Source: Gemmatimonadota bacterium (GTDB lineage Bacteria; Gemmatimonadota; Gemmatimonadetes; Gemmatimonadales; GWC2-71-9). From it: a DNA stretch of 52,690 bases. The stretch lies in assembly GCA_003246755.1 (NCBI GenBank), contig QKDC01000156.1:1-52690 (forward strand), in the 5' to 3' direction. The notes beneath the pieces were generated by a model. The model worked only from the letters and a program-made list of their open reading frames with translations, was not told the origin of the DNA and did no database searches. The translations under genes were made by a program, and so were the position numbers. Of the stretch, positions 26,604-34,641 are shown piece by piece (position 1 is the stretch's first letter; every line of letters begins with the position of its first letter).

Positions 26604-26823
26604 CAGATTCCTGTCGGCGGGCGGAGACGATCACTCGCAGGATCGCCCCCGCCTCTAAAGCGGCATCGGGTTGGAGGCGGATGCCGCGACCATCGGTCAC
26701 GTAGGCTCGTCCTCCCTCGAGTTGCGGGATGAGCGTCCGGTCATGTGCCTCGACGGCGGAGAGCACCGTCGCTGGGGCCGAAACCAGAGTTGGGCGTTCA
26801 TTGACGAAGACGGTGACGGACAT
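26590..26823 (-). CDS. small conserved-looking protein heading the purine salvage operon (possible beta-grasp fold)
   Basis: A 77-aa protein from ATG 26823 (GTG 26853 and ATG 26835 are alternatives; none has a Shine-Dalgarno sequence). The order of segments, TVFVNERPTLV then ATVLSAVEAHD and finally GAILRVIVSARR, is reminiscent of MoaD/ThiS-like beta-grasp proteins. The C-terminal Gly-Gly that such sulfur carriers need is absent, so a carrier role is unlikely. VTDGRGIRLQPDAAL is a distinctive central motif. It is the first gene of the add-CNT-PNP operon and overlaps add by 14 bases, so coupling is likely. Function is unknown. Confidence 0.65.
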   Translation of the reverse strand: MSVTVFVNERPTLVSAPATVLSAVEAHDRTLIPQLEGGRAYVTDGRGIRLQPDAALEAGAILRVIVSARRQESDADA

Positions 26824-26900
26824 GACGTGAGACATGGAGGGCGAATAATTCACTCACGGGGAGTGGTTGGCAATCGGGGCCCCGAAGGGACACCGCACGG

Positions 26901-26929
26901 TTGCACGACGCGCCAGGTTTGTGTATTCG
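26901..26929 (+). promoter_or_regulatory. candidate promoter of the arsR-phoB-phoR unit
   Basis: TTGCAC (26901-26906), a 17-base spacer and TATTCG (26924-26929) lie 11 bases before the arsR ATG. The -10 match is weak. The 117-base divergent region also must hold the promoter of the purine operon. Confidence 0.3.
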
Positions 26930-26940
26930 TCTCTCCACTC

Positions 26941-27309
26941 ATGGCATCCTCCGGACCATCACCCGCCGACCTGTTGTGTACCATCGCAGAGCCCACCCGC
27001 CTGCGACTTCTCAATTGTCTCGCCGGCTCACCGCTGTTCGTGCTCGACCTGCAGGCGATCCTCGCGCTCCCGCAACCGACCGTGTCGCGACACCTGACGG
27101 TGCTGCGCCACGCCGGGATTGTTCAAGCCATTCCACACGCCCAGTACATGCTCTACCAAATCCGATGGGAGGCGTCCCATCGAGACCGCTTGCTCCGCGC
27201 GATCCTCGGCGCGCTGAGTTCCGACGATCACTTCGCTCGTGAACGGCAAGAAGCCCAGGCACGCGGTCAGAGTCGGGACCGCACGCTCCGAGCCCGTTCG
27301 ACAGCATGA
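26941..27309 (+). CDS. ArsR-type winged-helix transcriptional regulator
   Basis: A 122-aa DNA-binding protein. The ArsR-family winged helix runs from TIAEPTRLRLLNCLAG through the recognition helix PQPTVSRHLTVLRHAGIV to the wing AQYMLYQIR. The CVCDL-type metal-binding cysteines of arsenite sensors are replaced by LFVLDL, so classic As(III) sensing at that site is not expected; two cysteines (about residues 13 and 26) remain. ATG 26941 is the only plausible start and has no ribosome binding site. The stop overlaps the phoB start (ATGA at 27306), so it is co-translated with the phosphate regulator. A role in phosphate or arsenate response is inferred from position only. Confidence 0.82.
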   Translation: MASSGPSPADLLCTIAEPTRLRLLNCLAGSPLFVLDLQAILALPQPTVSRHLTVLRHAGIVQAIPHAQYMLYQIRWEASHRDRLLRAILGALSSDDHFARERQEAQARGQSRDRTLRARSTA

Positions 27310-27992
27310 CGGCTGGCATTCTCGTCGTCGATGACGAACGCGACATCACCGCACTCGTCGCCTTTCATCTGGCCAAAGAAGGATTCCGGGTGACCACCGC
27401 CAGTTCCGCGGACGAAGCGCTCAGGACGGCCAGACTCGAAGTTCCGGATGTGGTGGTACTCGATGTCATGCTGCCGGGAGCGTCGGGATATGACATCCTG
27501 GAAGAATTGCGGTCGTGGCCGGAGACCAAGACGGTCGGGGTGATCATGCTCACTGCCCGACGGGATGAAGCGGACCGGGTGCGCGGACTTTCACTGGGAG
27601 CGGACGATTATCTCACGAAACCGTTCTCCCCGCGTGAACTGATCCTTCGCGTGAAGGCCCTGCTCCGTCGCCTCGAGAGCCCGGGCGCTTCGAAGAGCAC
27701 CATTGCCGCCGGAGCACTCCTGATCGATCGCACGGCCCACGTGGTGAGCGTCAACGGAGTGGAAATCACCCTCACGGCCACGGAATTCAAGCTCCTCAGC
27801 GAACTGGCCGAACGTCCGGGTCGAGTCCACACCCGTCCCCAATTGCTGCAGAGCGTGTGGGAGGCCCAGCCAGACATCCAAACCCGGACCGTGGACATGC
27901 ACGTGCAGCGACTGCGTGGCAAACTCCTCGACGCCGCCGACTTGATCGAGACGGTTCGAGGGTTTGGCTATCGCCTCCGCATTCCCGACTAG
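27306..27992 (+). CDS. phoB: phosphate regulon response regulator PhoB/PhoP (OmpR family)
   Basis: A 228-aa two-component regulator. The receiver domain has the acidic pocket VVDDERD, the phospho-acceptor D53 in VVLDVMLPG, the Thr/Ser position MLTARRD and the conserved lysine in LTKPFSPREL. The C-terminal OmpR-type winged helix contains ALLIDRTAHVVSV, LTATEFKLLSELAERPG and VDMHVQRLRGKL. Assignment to PhoB rests on the directly following PhoR-like kinase and pst-phoU genes. It probably binds the 11-bp repeats upstream of pstS. It overlaps arsR by ATGA and is nine bases from phoR. Confidence 0.92.
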   Translation: MTAGILVVDDERDITALVAFHLAKEGFRVTTASSADEALRTARLEVPDVVVLDVMLPGASGYDILEELRSWPETKTVGVIMLTARRDEADRVRGLSLGADDYLTKPFSPRELILRVKALLRRLESPGASKSTIAAGALLIDRTAHVVSVNGVEITLTATEFKLLSELAERPGRVHTRPQLLQSVWEAQPDIQTRTVDMHVQRLRGKLLDAADLIETVRGFGYRLRIPD

Positions 27993-28001
27993 ACCACCTG
28001 C

Positions 28002-29411
28002 ATGCGGTTGACCGGCAGACTGCTCCTCGGAGCCACGGGCATTCTGGTCTTTGCCATTCTCGTCACGGCCATCGTCTTCCACCGCACCACACGCTACCAA
28101 ATCGATCTGGCGCCATCATCTCGCCAGGATGCACCCCGGGACCAAAGTGCCGTTCGAGCACCCGCCATCGAATGGGAACGCCCACTCGTGCTGTCAGCGG
28201 TGGTGGTCCTGGTTCTCGGAGGGGGAATCGTGCTGATCGAAGCACGGCGCCTGAGCAAGTCACTGCATCGGATAACCGACGCCATCGGCACTTTCGACGC
28301 GAAGGATCTTGCGGCCATTCCGCAGACTCGCATCGCCGAGCTGGACGACCTGGTTCGTGCCCTGCGGCGGCGAAGGGACACCGTGGAGCGGAATGTCGCA
28401 TTGCTGACCCAGGACCGGGTCCAGGCCGCTGCTCTGATCGATGTGATGGAGGAAGCCGTTCTCGCCACCGACCCCAAGGGACGGATCGTGACCTTCAATC
28501 GAGCCGCGCAACAGCTGTTTGGCCCCTCATCCAGCGGTGCCCTCCCGGAGTTGTCTCACCTCCTGCGCACCCGTGAGGCGCAAGAATTCATTCAGGCCGC
28601 TGAGGGGGGTGGCCCGATTACCCGCGAAATTCGGCTGGCAGGTCGTGTTCTCCTGGCCTCGGCGCGAGCCACCCCGGACGGTGGATTGCTCATCGTCCTG
28701 CACGACGTGACTGATCTCCGCCATCTCGAAACCGTCCGGAGAGACTTCATCACCAACGCCTCACACGAACTCAAGACCCCTCTGACAGCCGTCGTGGGAT
28801 TCGCGGAAACCCTGCGAGACGAAACGACCGACCCCGACACGCAGAAACGGTTCGCCTCCATCATCCTGTCGAATGCACTCCGGATGCAGGCCCTGGTGGA
28901 GCACCAACTGGACCTCGCGCGAGCAGAGTCCCCGGAGTGGAACCCCGCGCCGGAGTCGTCGGACATCGCCCGGGTCGCCGGAGACGTCTGGAGCCACCTG
29001 ATGGAGTTGGAAAGGGACAGCAGCATCGAACTGCAACTGGAGGTCACCGATGCCGGCTCGGTCTGGGTGGACCCCGAAGCCCTGCGACAAGTGCTGCGCA
29101 ACCTCTTGGAGAATGCGATCCGGCACACCCCCCCGAAGGGCCGAATCACGCTTTCGACCACCCGTCGGGATCGGGGTGTGGTGATGACGGTGAGCGATAC
29201 GGGGCCGGGGATCGGCAGCGAGCACCTCACGAGAATCTTCGAGCGGTACTACCGAGCCGACGCGGGACGATCCCGGAAGGAAGGGGGAACGGGGCTCGGC
29301 TTGGCCATCGTCAAACACCTCACCGAGGCGCATGGAGGGACGGTGGCTGCGGAGAGCGAATTGGGTCGGGGTACCAGGATCTCCTGCTGGTTCCCCGACC
29401 AGGGCGTTTAG
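28002..29411 (+). CDS. phoR: phosphate sensor histidine kinase PhoR
   Basis: A 469-aa membrane kinase. Two N-terminal helices (about residues 8-28 and 61-79) enclose a loop of only about 30 residues, which fits PhoR proteins that sense phosphate indirectly through PstSCAB-PhoU. A HAMP-like linker and a PAS domain (MEEAVLATDPKGRIVTFN) precede the HisKA box with H255 in ITNASHELKTPLTAV. The ATPase domain shows NLLENAIRHTPP, DTGPGIG and GGTGLGLAIVKHL. It should phosphorylate the PhoB encoded just upstream. Its stop is followed immediately by the repeat ladder and pstS. Confidence 0.9.
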   Translation: MRLTGRLLLGATGILVFAILVTAIVFHRTTRYQIDLAPSSRQDAPRDQSAVRAPAIEWERPLVLSAVVVLVLGGGIVLIEARRLSKSLHRITDAIGTFDAKDLAAIPQTRIAELDDLVRALRRRRDTVERNVALLTQDRVQAAALIDVMEEAVLATDPKGRIVTFNRAAQQLFGPSSSGALPELSHLLRTREAQEFIQAAEGGGPITREIRLAGRVLLASARATPDGGLLIVLHDVTDLRHLETVRRDFITNASHELKTPLTAVVGFAETLRDETTDPDTQKRFASIILSNALRMQALVEHQLDLARAESPEWNPAPESSDIARVAGDVWSHLMELERDSSIELQLEVTDAGSVWVDPEALRQVLRNLLENAIRHTPPKGRITLSTTRRDRGVVMTVSDTGPGIGSEHLTRIFERYYRADAGRSRKEGGTGLGLAIVKHLTEAHGGTVAAESELGRGTRISCWFPDQGV

Positions 29412-29476
29412 TGACGGTGGATGTTACACGACCGTGACGACAGGGTGAGTGGGCCGTGACGGCGGAGGAGTACTGT
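29411..29476 (+). promoter_or_regulatory. candidate Pho box: ladder of 11-bp direct repeats and -10 element upstream of pstS
   Basis: Four consecutive 11-bp units start with GT(T/G)A(C/G): GTTACACGACC (29423), GTGACGACAGG (29434), GTGAGTGGGCC (29445), GTGACGGCGGA (29456). A further GTGACG at 29411 begins 12 bases before the first. Tandem 11-bp repeats are the known form of PhoB/PhoP operators. A possible -10, TACTGT, lies at 29471-29476, nine to ten bases after the last conserved core, as in PhoB-activated promoters lacking a -35. pstS starts at 29510. Confidence 0.65.
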
Positions 29477-29509
29477 TGTCTCGCCTCCAACCCATCACTA
29501 GGAAGAGCA

Positions 29510-30595
29510 ATGTCCGACACCAAACAGATTGCACGCCGAAGCGGGTTCAGTCTCATGGCCTCCCTCGTCCTCCTCGGTTGCGGAGGAGCAGGTGGAGGTG
29601 ACGGCGCCGGCGCGAATGCGGTGACCAGTCTCACCGGTGCGGGAGCCACGTTTCCCTATCCCATCTACAGCAAGTGGTTCGATGCCTACGCCCGGGAGAC
29701 TGGAGTGGAGGTGAACTACCAATCCATCGGATCGGGAGGCGGTGTCCGCCAGTTCACCGCCGAGACCGTGGACTTCGGGGCCACGGACGGGCCGATGACC
29801 GATGAGGAAATCGCTGGGGTTCAAGGCAACGTGGTCCACCTCCCCACCGTGCTGGGAGCAGTGGTACTGACCTACAATCTCCCCTCCCTGGGAGACCATC
29901 CATTGAGACTCGATGCCGCCACTATTGCCGATATTTTCCTTGGCCGCATCACCAAGTGGAATGACCCCCGGCTGGTCGCTCTCAACCCAGGCACGGACCT
30001 ACCCAACCAGGACTTGATCGTGGTCCATCGTTCCGACGGGTCTGGAACCACCTTCGTGTTCGTCGACTACCTGGCCAAGGTATCCACCGACTGGCAAGAG
30101 CAAGTCGGCGTCGGCAAGTCGGTGAACTGGCCGGTCGGACTGGGAGGCAAAGGGAATGAGGGTGTCACGCAACAAGTGAGTCAACTCGACGGAACGATCG
30201 GCTATGTTGAGTTGGTGTACGCCGTTTCCAATAGTCTCCGGGTCGCTGAGGTGCAGAACGCCGCCGGCCAGTTCGTGACCCCAAGTCTGGAAGCCGTCAC
30301 CGCGGCGGCGGCGGGTGTTTCGATGGGACCCGATACCGACTTCCGCGTTTCGATCACCAACGCCACGGGAGAGGCTTCGTATCCGATCGCCTCCTATACG
30401 TGGTTGCTGGTGCATGCAGACAATCCCGACGTTTCGAAGGCGCAGGCCATCCAGAGCTTTCTCCGATGGATCCTGACACCCGAGGCGCAGGCCATGGCGA
30501 CCGACTTGGGTTATGCGCCGCTTCCGGAGTCCGTGGCGACGTTGGCCAGGACCCGCATCGCATCCCTCCTGGGTGGAGGGCAGGCGCTCAAGTGA
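29510..30595 (+). CDS. pstS: phosphate ABC transporter substrate-binding lipoprotein PstS
   Basis: A 361-aa phosphate-binding protein. The lipobox LVLLGC (C24) predicts a lipid-anchored form. Phosphate-contact segments are recognisable: LTGAGATFPYPIYSKW, YQSIGSGGGVRQF, DFGATDGPMTDEE, and VVHRSDGSGTTFVF. Length is typical. ATG 29510 is preceded by AGGAAGAG; the in-frame ATG at 29456 would lie within the repeat ladder and is rejected. It is the first structural gene of the pst operon and presumably the main PhoB target. Confidence 0.95.
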   Translation: MSDTKQIARRSGFSLMASLVLLGCGGAGGGDGAGANAVTSLTGAGATFPYPIYSKWFDAYARETGVEVNYQSIGSGGGVRQFTAETVDFGATDGPMTDEEIAGVQGNVVHLPTVLGAVVLTYNLPSLGDHPLRLDAATIADIFLGRITKWNDPRLVALNPGTDLPNQDLIVVHRSDGSGTTFVFVDYLAKVSTDWQEQVGVGKSVNWPVGLGGKGNEGVTQQVSQLDGTIGYVELVYAVSNSLRVAEVQNAAGQFVTPSLEAVTAAAAGVSMGPDTDFRVSITNATGEASYPIASYTWLLVHADNPDVSKAQAIQSFLRWILTPEAQAMATDLGYAPLPESVATLARTRIASLLGGGQALK

Positions 30596-30605
30596 CCTGG
30601 GGGAG

Positions 30606-31598
30606 ATGAACGAGCCGGAGTCGAACGTGGCACCACCGAAAGGTGAGCCACACGGATTCCAGGACTTGTCGGGCACCAATGTTGGGGACATCGTTTTCAA
30701 AACGGTCCTCATCCTTGGTGCCCTTCTCATCCCCGTTCTTCTCGGGTTCCTCGTCTGGGAGCTCGTGGATGGATCGCGCCTGGCGATCCAAGAGTACGGT
30801 CTCGGGTTCCTCACCTCCTCGACCTGGGATCCCGTCGCCGAAGAGTTCGGCGCGCTCCCGCTGATTTTCGGAACCCTCCTGTCGTCGCTTCTCGCGCTGC
30901 TCATCGCGGTCCCGCTGTCGCTCGGGGTCGCGGTCTTCCTCACAGAATTCGCGCCGGCCAGGATACGATCCCCGATCGCGTTCCTGCTCGAACTGCTCGC
31001 GGCGATCCCGAGTGTGGTGTACGGCCTCTGGGGCATCTTCGTCCTGATTCCCTTCCTCCGTGCGACCATCTTTCCCTTCCTGCAAGGCACACTTGGGTTT
31101 CTCCCGTTCTTCAGCGGACCGATCTACGGGCCGTCCATGCTCGCTGCCGCGGTGATCCTCGCCATCATGGTCATGCCGTACATCATGTCGGTCTCGCGGG
31201 AAGTCCTGCTGGCGGTTCCCGCGAGCCAGCGCGAGGCTGCCATCGCGCTGGGAGCGACCCGCTGGGAGGCGGTCACGACCGCCGTGATCCCATCCGCCCG
31301 ATCGGGGATCATCGGCGCGATCATCCTGGGACTCGGTCGAGCCCTGGGTGAGACCATGGCCGTGACCATGGTGATCGGGAACACTCACGAACTCGCGGCC
31401 TCGCTCTTCGCGCCGGGATATACCATGGCGGCGGTGGTCGCCAACGAGTTTACCGAGGCCTCCACCGACATCCATTTCGCGGCCCTCACGTACGTTGCGC
31501 TCGCCCTGTTCGTCGTGACTCTTGCAGTCAACGCCTTCGCCCGGCTTCTCGTGTGGCGAGTCACGCAGAAGGCTTCGGGGAGCGGGGGAGGACGATGA
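30606..31598 (+). CDS. pstC: phosphate ABC transporter permease PstC
   Basis: A 330-aa inner-membrane permease subunit. After a soluble N-terminal tail, six helices begin at FKTVLILGALLIPVLLGFL. The PstC signature FLLELLAAIPSVVYGLWGIF and the EAA coupling loop REAAIALGATRWEAVTTAVIPSARSGI-type segment are visible, followed by GLGRALGETMAVTMVIGN. It pairs with PstA to form the channel. ATG 30606 is preceded by a GGGGGAG run, and the stop overlaps the pstA start (ATGA at 31595). Confidence 0.95.
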   Translation: MNEPESNVAPPKGEPHGFQDLSGTNVGDIVFKTVLILGALLIPVLLGFLVWELVDGSRLAIQEYGLGFLTSSTWDPVAEEFGALPLIFGTLLSSLLALLIAVPLSLGVAVFLTEFAPARIRSPIAFLLELLAAIPSVVYGLWGIFVLIPFLRATIFPFLQGTLGFLPFFSGPIYGPSMLAAAVILAIMVMPYIMSVSREVLLAVPASQREAAIALGATRWEAVTTAVIPSARSGIIGAIILGLGRALGETMAVTMVIGNTHELAASLFAPGYTMAAVVANEFTEASTDIHFAALTYVALALFVVTLAVNAFARLLVWRVTQKASGSGGGR

Positions 31599-32443
31599 TC
31601 AACTCCCGTCGGGTCCGTCGATGGACGAGCAATCTCATGGTGGGAGTCGTGGGTTTGACGGTGCTCATCGGAATCCTGCCGCTCTTCCTGATCCTCGGTA
31701 CGCTCGTGGTGAAGGGGGCCGGCAGTCTCAACCTCGCGTTCTTCTTGGAGACCCCCGCCCCGGTTGGCGAAACCGGTGGCGGCGTGGCCCACGCGATCGT
31801 GGGAACGCTCCTCATTGTCGCGGTGGCCTGCCTCATGGGACTCCCCATCGGCCTCGCCGCCGGCATTCACGCCGCCGAGTTCCCAGGCACCAGACTCTCC
31901 CGCGCAACACGGTTCCTCGCCGACGTGATGAACGGGACCCCTTCCATCGTCGTCGGGGTCTTCGCCTGGACATGGGTCGTGGCTCGTCAGGGACATTTCT
32001 CCGGATTGGCGGGATCGGTTGCTTTGGCCCTGCTGATGATCCCGATGGTGATGCGAACAACCGAGGAACTGATCCTCCTGGTCCCGAACGCCCTGCGTGA
32101 GGCGGCGCTGGCCCTGGGCTACTCACGTTGGCGGACGTCCCTTACCATCGTGGCGCGCACCGCCCTCCCGGGACTGGTGACCGGAAGCCTGCTCGCCGTG
32201 GCCCGGATTGCCGGGGAGACCGCGCCGTTGCTCTTCACGGCCCTCGGGAGCCAGTTCATGCGGACCGACGTGACACAGCCGATGTCGGCACTCCCTCTCG
32301 CGGTCTTCGCCTATGCGACGGGACCATACGAGGAATGGCACCGTTTGGCGTGGGCTTCGGCGCTGGTCCTGATTCTGTTGGTGCTGTTCCTCAGCCTGTT
32401 GACCCGGCTCGCGACGCGATCACGGTTCGGTTCTCATGAGTGA
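31595..32443 (+). CDS. pstA: phosphate ABC transporter permease PstA
   Basis: A 282-aa permease partner of PstC with six predicted helices. Family motifs include [19 protein letters not shown], the EAA loop [19 protein letters not shown], and [22 protein letters not shown] 31595 overlaps the pstC stop, and its own stop overlaps pstB1 by eight bases, so translation of the pst genes is coupled throughout. The open frame from 31553 is the shadow of pstC. Confidence 0.95.
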
Positions 32444-33197
32444 CCGCCCTCGCGTGGAGGCGCAGAACCTGACGGCGAGCTACCACGGGAAACCGGCGAT
32501 TCGCGAGGTGTCGTTGAGTTTCCAAGCCAACCAAGTCCATGCGCTGATCGGTCCGTCGGGGTGCGGCAAGTCGACATTCCTGCGCACCATCAACCGGATG
32601 CACGAACTGACCCCGGGGGCGACGGTCGAAGGCAGCGTCCTGGTGGACGGCAAAGACATCTACACCTCCGGCATCAATCCCATGCATCTCCGGCGACACG
32701 TTGGCATGGTCTTCCAGAAGCCGACCCCCTTCCCCACGATGTCGATCTTTGACAACGTCGCTGCCGGGCTCAAGATCTTGCCGCGCAGCGAACGGCCGCT
32801 TGCCGAGGTCGTCGAAGAGGCGTTACGAGGCGCAGCGCTGTGGGACGAGGTCAAGGATCGCCTGAACAAGAGTGCGCTTTCACTCTCGGGTGGCCAGCAG
32901 CAGCGTCTCTGCATCGCACGGACACTCGCGCCAGGTCCCACCGTCATTCTGCTCGACGAACCGACGTCGGCCCTCGACCCGACGGCCACTCAGCGTATCG
33001 AGGAGTTGCTCTACAAGCTCAAATCGAAGTACACCATCGTGATCGTGACCCACAACATGCAGCAGGCGGCCCGGCTCTCGGATACGACGTCCTTCTTCTA
33101 TCTCGGTGAGTTGATCGAGCACGCTGATACCAAGTCGCTCTTCACCACGCCCCAGAAGGAGCGCACCGAGGCGTACGTTACGGGGAAGTTCGGATGA
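32436..33197 (+). CDS. pstB: phosphate ABC transporter ATP-binding protein PstB, first copy
   Basis: A 253-aa ABC ATPase powering phosphate uptake. The Walker A is [18 protein letters not shown], with the PstB-typical NRMHEL after it. The Q loop is [10 protein letters not shown], the ABC signature [16 protein letters not shown] and Walker [14 protein letters not shown]; the switch histidine is in [13 protein letters not shown]. It overlaps pstA by eight bases and the second pstB by four. Two PstB genes for a single PstCA pair are unusual. Confidence 0.95.
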
Positions 33198-33958
33198 CGG
33201 ATTGGATTCCTGCCTTGGAGGCACGGGGCTTTGGCCTCTCGTACGGGTCCTCGCGGATCCTCGAGGAGATCTCCTTCACCGTTCCCACCGGCTCCGTGGC
33301 AGCCATCATCGGGCCATCCGGCTGCGGGAAGTCCACGTTCCTCCGTTCCGTGAACCGACTGAACGATCTCGTGCCGACGACATCCTATGACGGCGATCTC
33401 CTGATCGAGGGCGTATCGGTCTTTCGACCCGACACCGACCTCGTGGATCTCCGGCTCCAGGTTGGCATGGTCTTTCAGCGCCCGAACCCGTTTCCGAAAT
33501 CCATCTATGAGAATGTGGCGTACGGTCCTCGACTCAACCGGCTGGGCAGCCGCAAGGATTTGCCCACGCTCGTGGAACGGTGTCTTCAACGTGCGGCCCT
33601 GTGGGACGAGGTCAAAGATCGCCTTCACGAATCAGCCATGGGACTTTCGGGAGGTCAGCAGCAACGGCTCTGTATCGCGCGGGCACTCGCCAATGAGCCA
33701 CAGGTCCTCTTGATGGACGAGCCGTGTTCGGCCCTCGACCCGATCGCCACGCAGCGGATCGAGGAACTCATCTTCGAACTGAAACAGCAGTACACGATCA
33801 TCATCGTGACGCACAACATGCAGCAGGCGGCCCGGGTGTCCGATTCAACGGGCTTTTTTGAGAGTGGTCGGCTGATCGAGTATGGTCCGACCGAGCAGAT
33901 CTTCACGGCCCCAACTCAAGACCGGACTGAGGCCTATATCACAGGGAGGTTTGGATGA
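33194..33958 (+). CDS. pstB: phosphate ABC transporter ATP-binding protein PstB, second copy
   Basis: A 254-aa paralogue of the preceding ATPase, probably from tandem duplication. All nucleotide-binding motifs are intact: [70 protein letters not shown] and [13 protein letters not shown]. Its NRLNDL and [13 protein letters not shown] segments are closer to the classical PstB consensus than those of the first copy. The products could form a heterodimer or be alternative subunits. It overlaps pstB1 and phoU by ATGA. Confidence 0.95.
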
Positions 33959-34641
33959 GCGAGTCGCGGCGTCACTTTCACGATCAACTCAGCGAGCTGC
34001 TCGCGAGCCTCCTGCGCATGTCATCGGATGCCGAGACCGCGGTGAGCCAGGCGGTCGAGGCCCTCCTGACACGGGACCGGGCGAAGGCGAACGGGGTGAT
34101 CGCCGGAGACAAGAACCTGGACGGTCAGGAAGTCGAAGTCGAAGAAGAGTGTATCAACCTACTGGCGCTGCAGCAGCCCATGGGCAAGGACCTCCGGACC
34201 CTCACCGCGGTCCTCAAGATTTCGAATGACCTCGAGCGTGTGGGCGATCACGCGGTCAACATCGCCGAGTCCGCGGTCCGCTTGAGTGAGAGCCGGATGA
34301 TGGCCGCCGAACCCGAACTGGTGGAGATGGCTCGGATCACCAAAGCGATGTTGGCTGATGCGCTCGATGCTCTCGTCCGACGCGATGCCGAAGCAGCTCG
34401 TGCGGTGTGTCGCCGAGATGACCAGGTGGACGAACTGCACAAATCGGTGTTCCGGATCGTACTGACCCACATGATGGAGCACCCGGAGCACATCAGTGCG
34501 GGGATGGAGTTCACCTCAACCAGCCGTAACCTGGAACGAATCGCCGATCTCGCCACCAACATCGGCGAGGATGTCGTGTTCCTGGTCGAGGGCAAGACCA
34601 TCAAACACCACGCCGAAGATGAGGCCGGTCAGGCTCCGTAG
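33955..34641 (+). CDS. phoU: phosphate signalling complex protein PhoU
   Basis: A 228-aa cytoplasmic protein with two three-helix PhoU bundles. Family repeats with the metal-binding E/D-x-x-x-D motif are visible: [21 protein letters not shown] in the first half and [20 protein letters not shown] in the second. PhoU couples Pst transport to inhibition of PhoR when phosphate is abundant. Length is normal. It is the last gene of the phosphate operon, and its 3' end overlaps the convergent aldehyde dehydrogenase by 13 bases. Confidence 0.95.

Follow-up and report, generated by a model that had tools for sequence, protein, structure and literature searches.

Pho boxes of the E. coli type are built of CTGTCATnnnn repeats and occur at phoA and pstS. 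In the E. coli phoA promoter, whose sequence is present in 4,653 of the 5,426 E. coli genomes searched and, in the record examined, lies directly 5' of phoA, the units GTCAT and GTCAC start 26 and 15 bp ahead of TATAGT, which we take to be the -10 hexamer. The structure of E. coli PhoB on DNA places base contacts at T194, V197, R201 and R219 (PMC3264566), with T194 and V197 contacting thymines and R201 a guanine (PMC3973317), and the direct repeat units of Streptomyces PhoP read GTTCACC, are 11 nt long and stand several to an operator (PMC4415409). No paper on a Pho box of Gemmatimonas or other Gemmatimonadota was found in the literature library searched. Here we describe a ladder of short repeats in a Gemmatimonadota genome that we read, with a probability of roughly 90%, as a Pho box that serves the promoter of the pst operon, with PhoB binding and activation as in the known family.

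A repeat ladder between phoR and pstS

In the window (the whole analysed stretch of 52,690 nt), the genes of the cluster phoB-phoR-pstSCABB-phoU all point the same way, with short gaps or overlaps between them. The ladder lies between phoR and pstS, the placement of a Pho box, with pstS directly 3' of it and phoB and phoR upstream. The features are as follows:

27306..27992, + strand: phoB, the response regulator that would be expected on the ladder; its top-scoring NCBIfam model is TIGR02154 (PhoB) at 253.6 bits, under the cut-off of 296
27897..27899, + strand: codon of Met198 in the recognition helix RTVDMHVQRLR, equivalent to V197 of E. coli PhoB (from the translation, a helix comparison and the contact residues of PMC3264566)
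28002..29411, + strand: phoR, sensor kinase with HisKA, HATPase_c and PAS domains; best NCBIfam matches PnpS/PhoR
29411..29415, + strand: ladder unit 1, GTGAC, 12 bp 5' of unit 2, sharing its first base with the end of the phoR stop codon (sequence)
29423..29427, + strand: ladder unit 2, GTTAC, with the -10 48 bp downstream (sequence)
29434..29438, + strand: ladder unit 3, GTGAC, with the -10 37 bp downstream (sequence)
29445..29449, + strand: ladder unit 4, GTGAG, degenerate, with the -10 26 bp downstream (sequence)
29456..29460, + strand: ladder unit 5, GTGAC, in the place of a -35, with the -10 15 bp downstream (sequence; 15-bp register in other lineages)
29471..29476, + strand: predicted -10 element TACTGT, matching TANNNT and standing at one of the three distances enriched in relatives, 15 bp
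29500..29505, + strand: RBS-like AGGAAG ahead of the pstS ATG (sequence)
29510..30595, + strand: pstS, phosphate-binding protein, leading the predicted regulated operon; TIGR00975 above cut-off
30585..34641, + strand: pstC, pstA, pstB, pstB and phoU, the remaining operon (NCBIfam TIGR02138, TIGR00974, TIGR00972 twice and TIGR02135)

The five units start 12, 11, 11 and 11 bp apart, as the initial annotation had placed them; four thus stand at exact 11-bp steps and one at 12, against the two or more direct repeat units of 11 nt that make a Pho box. The final base of the phoR stop codon TAG (29409-29411) is also the start of unit 1, and units 2 and 3 together form the commonest core among the relatives, GTTACAnnCCGTGAC. 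The hexamer TACTGT at 29471 is weak and is the -10-like sequence nearest to the ladder, 48, 37, 26 and 15 bp from the starts of the last four units; the weak -10 previously noted at the right distance lies exactly 15 bp from the start of the last unit. Neither an intrinsic terminator, an ordinary -35/-10 promoter nor an Rfam RNA family was found at the ladder site, and an ordinary promoter, a terminator and an RNA element were rejected there because none was detected.

Two other features of the cluster are recorded here. The two pstB genes (window 32436-33958), both above the TIGR00972 cut-off, form a tandem pair that is seen again in many relatives, and a gene for an ArsR-type regulator (window 26671-27309) overlaps the start of phoB. 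The region 5' of phoB in the window carries no ladder.

The ladder is a single site in this genome. In the window there is one match to four GTKAC units at 11 bp with up to 3 mismatches, where 0.04 are expected from shuffles; pattern searches of the source genome (3.15 Mb in 190 contigs, 96% complete) returned the ladder as the sole match to the four-unit pattern with up to 2 mismatches, and a reversed control pattern returned 0. A chance repeat in GC-rich DNA would sit well with the two deviations, the 12-bp step and the GTGAG unit. Against it stand this rarity, the recurrence of the ladder at the homologous place in relatives, which we regard as having already refuted chance, and the changes of GTCAC to GTGAC or GTAAC to GTTAC set out below, which base composition does not explain. 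We consider a chance origin practically discounted.

A scan for copies near phosphatase and transporter genes had been proposed with the initial annotation. In pattern searches of this genome, other phosphate genes had no further full ladder nearby; the expected enrichment did appear across relatives, after phoR, at pstS and at pstC. The PhoD phosphatase was rejected as a second regulon member: the gene is absent here, and the relatives' PhoD had no G/T-centred pair upstream in the 9 loci scanned. A looser three-unit search of the genome found the ladder and one other place, and the control equally gave 1. Two candidates for a second ladder were treated as chance, namely G000:C33:14899, which is flanked by a transketolase and an HNH gene and had 1 control match, and C137:18905, which lies inside a coding frame and had 2. 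The 11-bp repeat at the former, CTGTCgcgaaaCTGTCACG (G000:C33:14899-14925; L113, ~1500-1530), between the transketolase and an HNH-endonuclease-like gene, is possibly the site of another OmpR-family regulator, or else chance.

Conservation and promoter register among relatives

Judging from PstS, the closest relatives are Gemmatimonadales MAGs. Of 102 genomes of the family, 27 carry the exact ladder GTGACn6GTTACn6GTGAC, one copy in each, with 0 control matches, and the exact three-unit ladders that could be placed lie mostly directly 5' of pstC. Many close relatives thus differ from the window, where pstC overlaps pstS and one longer ladder stands 5' of pstS. The 26 distinct three-unit sequences align as GTGACnnntCCGTTACAnnncCGTGACGG; counted from where the third unit starts, TAnnnT comes at 26 bp, and an ATG follows it.

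More broadly, 24 of 37 Gemmatimonadota regions have a G/T-centred KTNAY pair at 11 bp in the 200 bp that follow phoR, where shuffles give 0.16, and 40 of 90 have one ahead of pstC (0.42 expected). The strict pair is absent from 50 of the 90 pstC regions and 13 of the 37 regions downstream of phoR, partly because the box precedes another gene of the cluster.

The distance from the last unit start to TANNNT in the relatives is enriched at 15 bp (5 cases), 26 bp (27) and 37 bp (7), with 0.46 expected at each. The 15-bp register appears again in other families of the same class (L202-L206) and in 6 of 33 ladders of other phyla. Since the distances in the window match those of E. coli phoA (15 and 26 bp), the ladder has the E. 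coli geometry, with a fixed -10 register and no -35. A -10 at 15 + 11k bp is the pattern that would be expected from a chain of regulators on one helix face ending at the -35 position. Taken together, the pairs after phoR and before pstC and a -10 at 15, 26 or 37 bp identify the ladder as a Pho box, consistent with the initial annotation, which had proposed one of lineage-specific sequence; the 11-bp period and the adjacent phoB and phoR support the same conclusion.

A regulator unrelated to PhoB could be imagined on the ladder, the ArsR-type protein for instance, whose gene (to 27309) overlaps the start of phoB. No such gene turned up at those phoB loci that were read in relatives, where the ladders are of the same kind, and ArsR proteins typically bind inverted repeats. 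We attach almost no weight to this explanation.

Modelled on the known PhoB family, the preferred Pho box reading would work as follows. When phosphate is scarce, PhoR would phosphorylate PhoB, and PhoB molecules would bind the 11-bp units head to tail on a single face of the DNA. The promoter-proximal molecule, 15 bp ahead of the -10, would recruit sigma-70 RNA polymerase in lieu of a -35 element, leading to transcription of pstSCABB-phoU. PhoB very probably binds the ladder; the dependence on phosphorylation and the activation are likewise drawn from the family. The direct support comes from the units, their period and uniqueness in the genome, the -10 register, the neighbouring genes, and conservation and orientation across the phylum. 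Points against the Pho box reading are the single 12-bp step, the GTGAG unit, the weak -10 and the PhoB model score under the curated cut-off, together with a window phoB that has no ladder, the lack of a second full ladder in the genome, and the many regions without a strict pair.

Several further arrangements were seen in the relatives. At their pstC promoters (e.g. L008, L033, L036 and L038), 25 of 26 distinct ladders have TANNNT 26 bp beyond the start of the last unit, with the ATG only 5-10 nt past that hexamer, from which a leaderless or nearly leaderless, PhoB-driven pstC mRNA is predicted. In L148, L159, L163 and L172, the frame after phoR, behind a box-like pair, resembles by eye the start of a GT4-type glycosyltransferase, which could have a role in lipid remodelling under phosphate starvation. 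In L211-L217, a divergent pstS paralogue has pairs of the GTGAC-GTGAC type ~2.3-2.8 kb upstream, with space for a large gene between, and in L220 (4660-4740) two divergent pstS genes come with one G/T-centred pair facing each way, which offers a natural check of box orientation.

Half-site sequence, orientation and the PhoB recognition helix

The units of the ladder (GTGAC, GTTAC, GTGAC, GTGAG and GTGAC) depart from the A/C-centred core of the E. coli type (KTMAY, e.g. GTCAT). That the core differs from the E. coli and Bacillus forms had been noted from the start, and this holds mainly for the centre base, G/T instead of A/C. The forms are nonetheless not unrelated, as published boxes and this ladder, aligned by register, have KTNAY in common. 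Among distinct pairs at 11 bp, drawn from 298 Gemmatimonadota regions and 137 others, both units were G/T-centred in 88 of the 104 pairs from Gemmatimonadota (0.9 expected), and both were A/C-centred in 38 of the 55 from other phyla (0.9 expected). The half-site of the lineage, as judged from these alignments, is KTKAY (GTGAC/GTTAC), compared with KTMAY elsewhere (GTCAT, TTCAC, GTAAC).

As GTNAC is palindromic, the Gemmatimonadota box could in principle be an ordinary A/C-centred box on the opposite strand, bound by a PhoB of the usual specificity facing away from pstS; indeed, the minus strand reads GTCAC and GTAAC, forms common in other phyla. In an inverted box, asymmetric variants would be expected to give KTMAY when read from the minus strand. 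Palindrome-breaking variants are, however, of the forward type in 12 Gemmatimonadota cases (TTTAC 7, GTGAT 5) and of the reverse type in 0 (p = 0.0005, an optimistic value because related, non-identical sequences count as separate cases), and the -10 register also matches forward boxes. Inversion is thus improbable, if the least so of the alternatives. Other phyla show 15 forward variants to 1 reverse, and by this comparison the orientation is shared with them, the centre base being what differs.

The recognition helix offers a candidate cause. PhoB of the window keeps three of the four base-contact residues of E. coli, with Met198 replacing V197. Met occupies this position in 20 of 20 distinct Gemmatimonadota helices and in 26 of 26 close PhoB homologues of a further set whose genomes overlap with the first, and in 0 of 14 readable PhoB-like proteins of other phyla (8 Val, 4 Thr, 1 Ala, 1 Gln). 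The KTKAY half-site would most likely be due to this Met, given Val, Thr, Ala or Gln in the other phyla sampled. The match between Met and a G/T centre is consistent but amounts to essentially one evolutionary contrast, and the causal step is an inference from it. Helix position 200 (E. coli numbering), which is Gln in most Gemmatimonadales, was rejected as the determinant because L242-L246, from related families, have Arg there and yet go with G/T-centred boxes, which were seen at the pst loci of three of these genomes (L203, L204 and L206).

G152, a genome from another class, lacks a close PhoB (best E 7.8e-34). Ahead of its pstS stands CTAACn6CTAACn6CTAATn6CTAAC, and TAAATT lies 15 bp past the last unit start. 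One PhoB-like regulator of this genome, L260, has Val at the V197 position and is our guess for the cognate regulator of this box. The genome also bears on whether an OmpR-family response regulator other than this PhoB occupies the ladder, which the generality of 11-bp direct repeats in the OmpR/PhoB family and the several such regulators per Gemmatimonadota genome would allow: the pst genes of G152, the sole genome sampled from another class that lacks a close PhoB, come without a G/T-centred pair, and the placement beside phoB-phoR and pst is conserved. We therefore hold another regulator to be quite unlikely, even less probable than an inverted box.

It is an evenly balanced conjecture that an ancestor of most Gemmatimonadota saw PhoB change in concert with its operators, a single Met substitution having switched the centre from A/C to G/T in every Pho half-site while spacing, orientation and promoter register were kept. 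If true, the Met/centre-base switch would be a natural case of a regulon recoded via a single contact residue. The question of how a global regulator alters its DNA specificity yet keeps its regulon is here reduced to one amino acid versus one base.

Comparison with described Pho boxes

These results provide a usable Pho box definition for a widespread and hardly cultured phylum: KTKAY units in 11-bp steps, with a -10 at 15, 26 or 37 bp from the last unit. They also bring Pho boxes that are written very differently across species into one common register, KTNAY.

Like the E. coli-type Pho box, the ladder consists of direct 11-bp units in the same orientation with the core KTNAY, and its promoter-proximal unit stands 15 bp ahead of the -10 without a -35. 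It differs in a G/T instead of a C centre, in having five units compared with two in phoA, and in the Met of its PhoB at the V197 position. With the Streptomyces PhoP operator it shares 11-nt direct units, several in a row; those units have C at the centre and T as the first core base, whereas the window has GTKAC. Acidobacteria pst ladders (L084, L088), e.g. TTCATn6TTCACn6GTAACn6TTAAC, likewise place four units at exact 11-bp steps 5' of pstS, but they are A/C-centred, and where a PhoB of that phylum was read, its residue at the helix position is Val or Ala. The layout is that of a classical Pho box, and what is altered throughout the class is the centre base, along with one DNA-contacting residue of PhoB.
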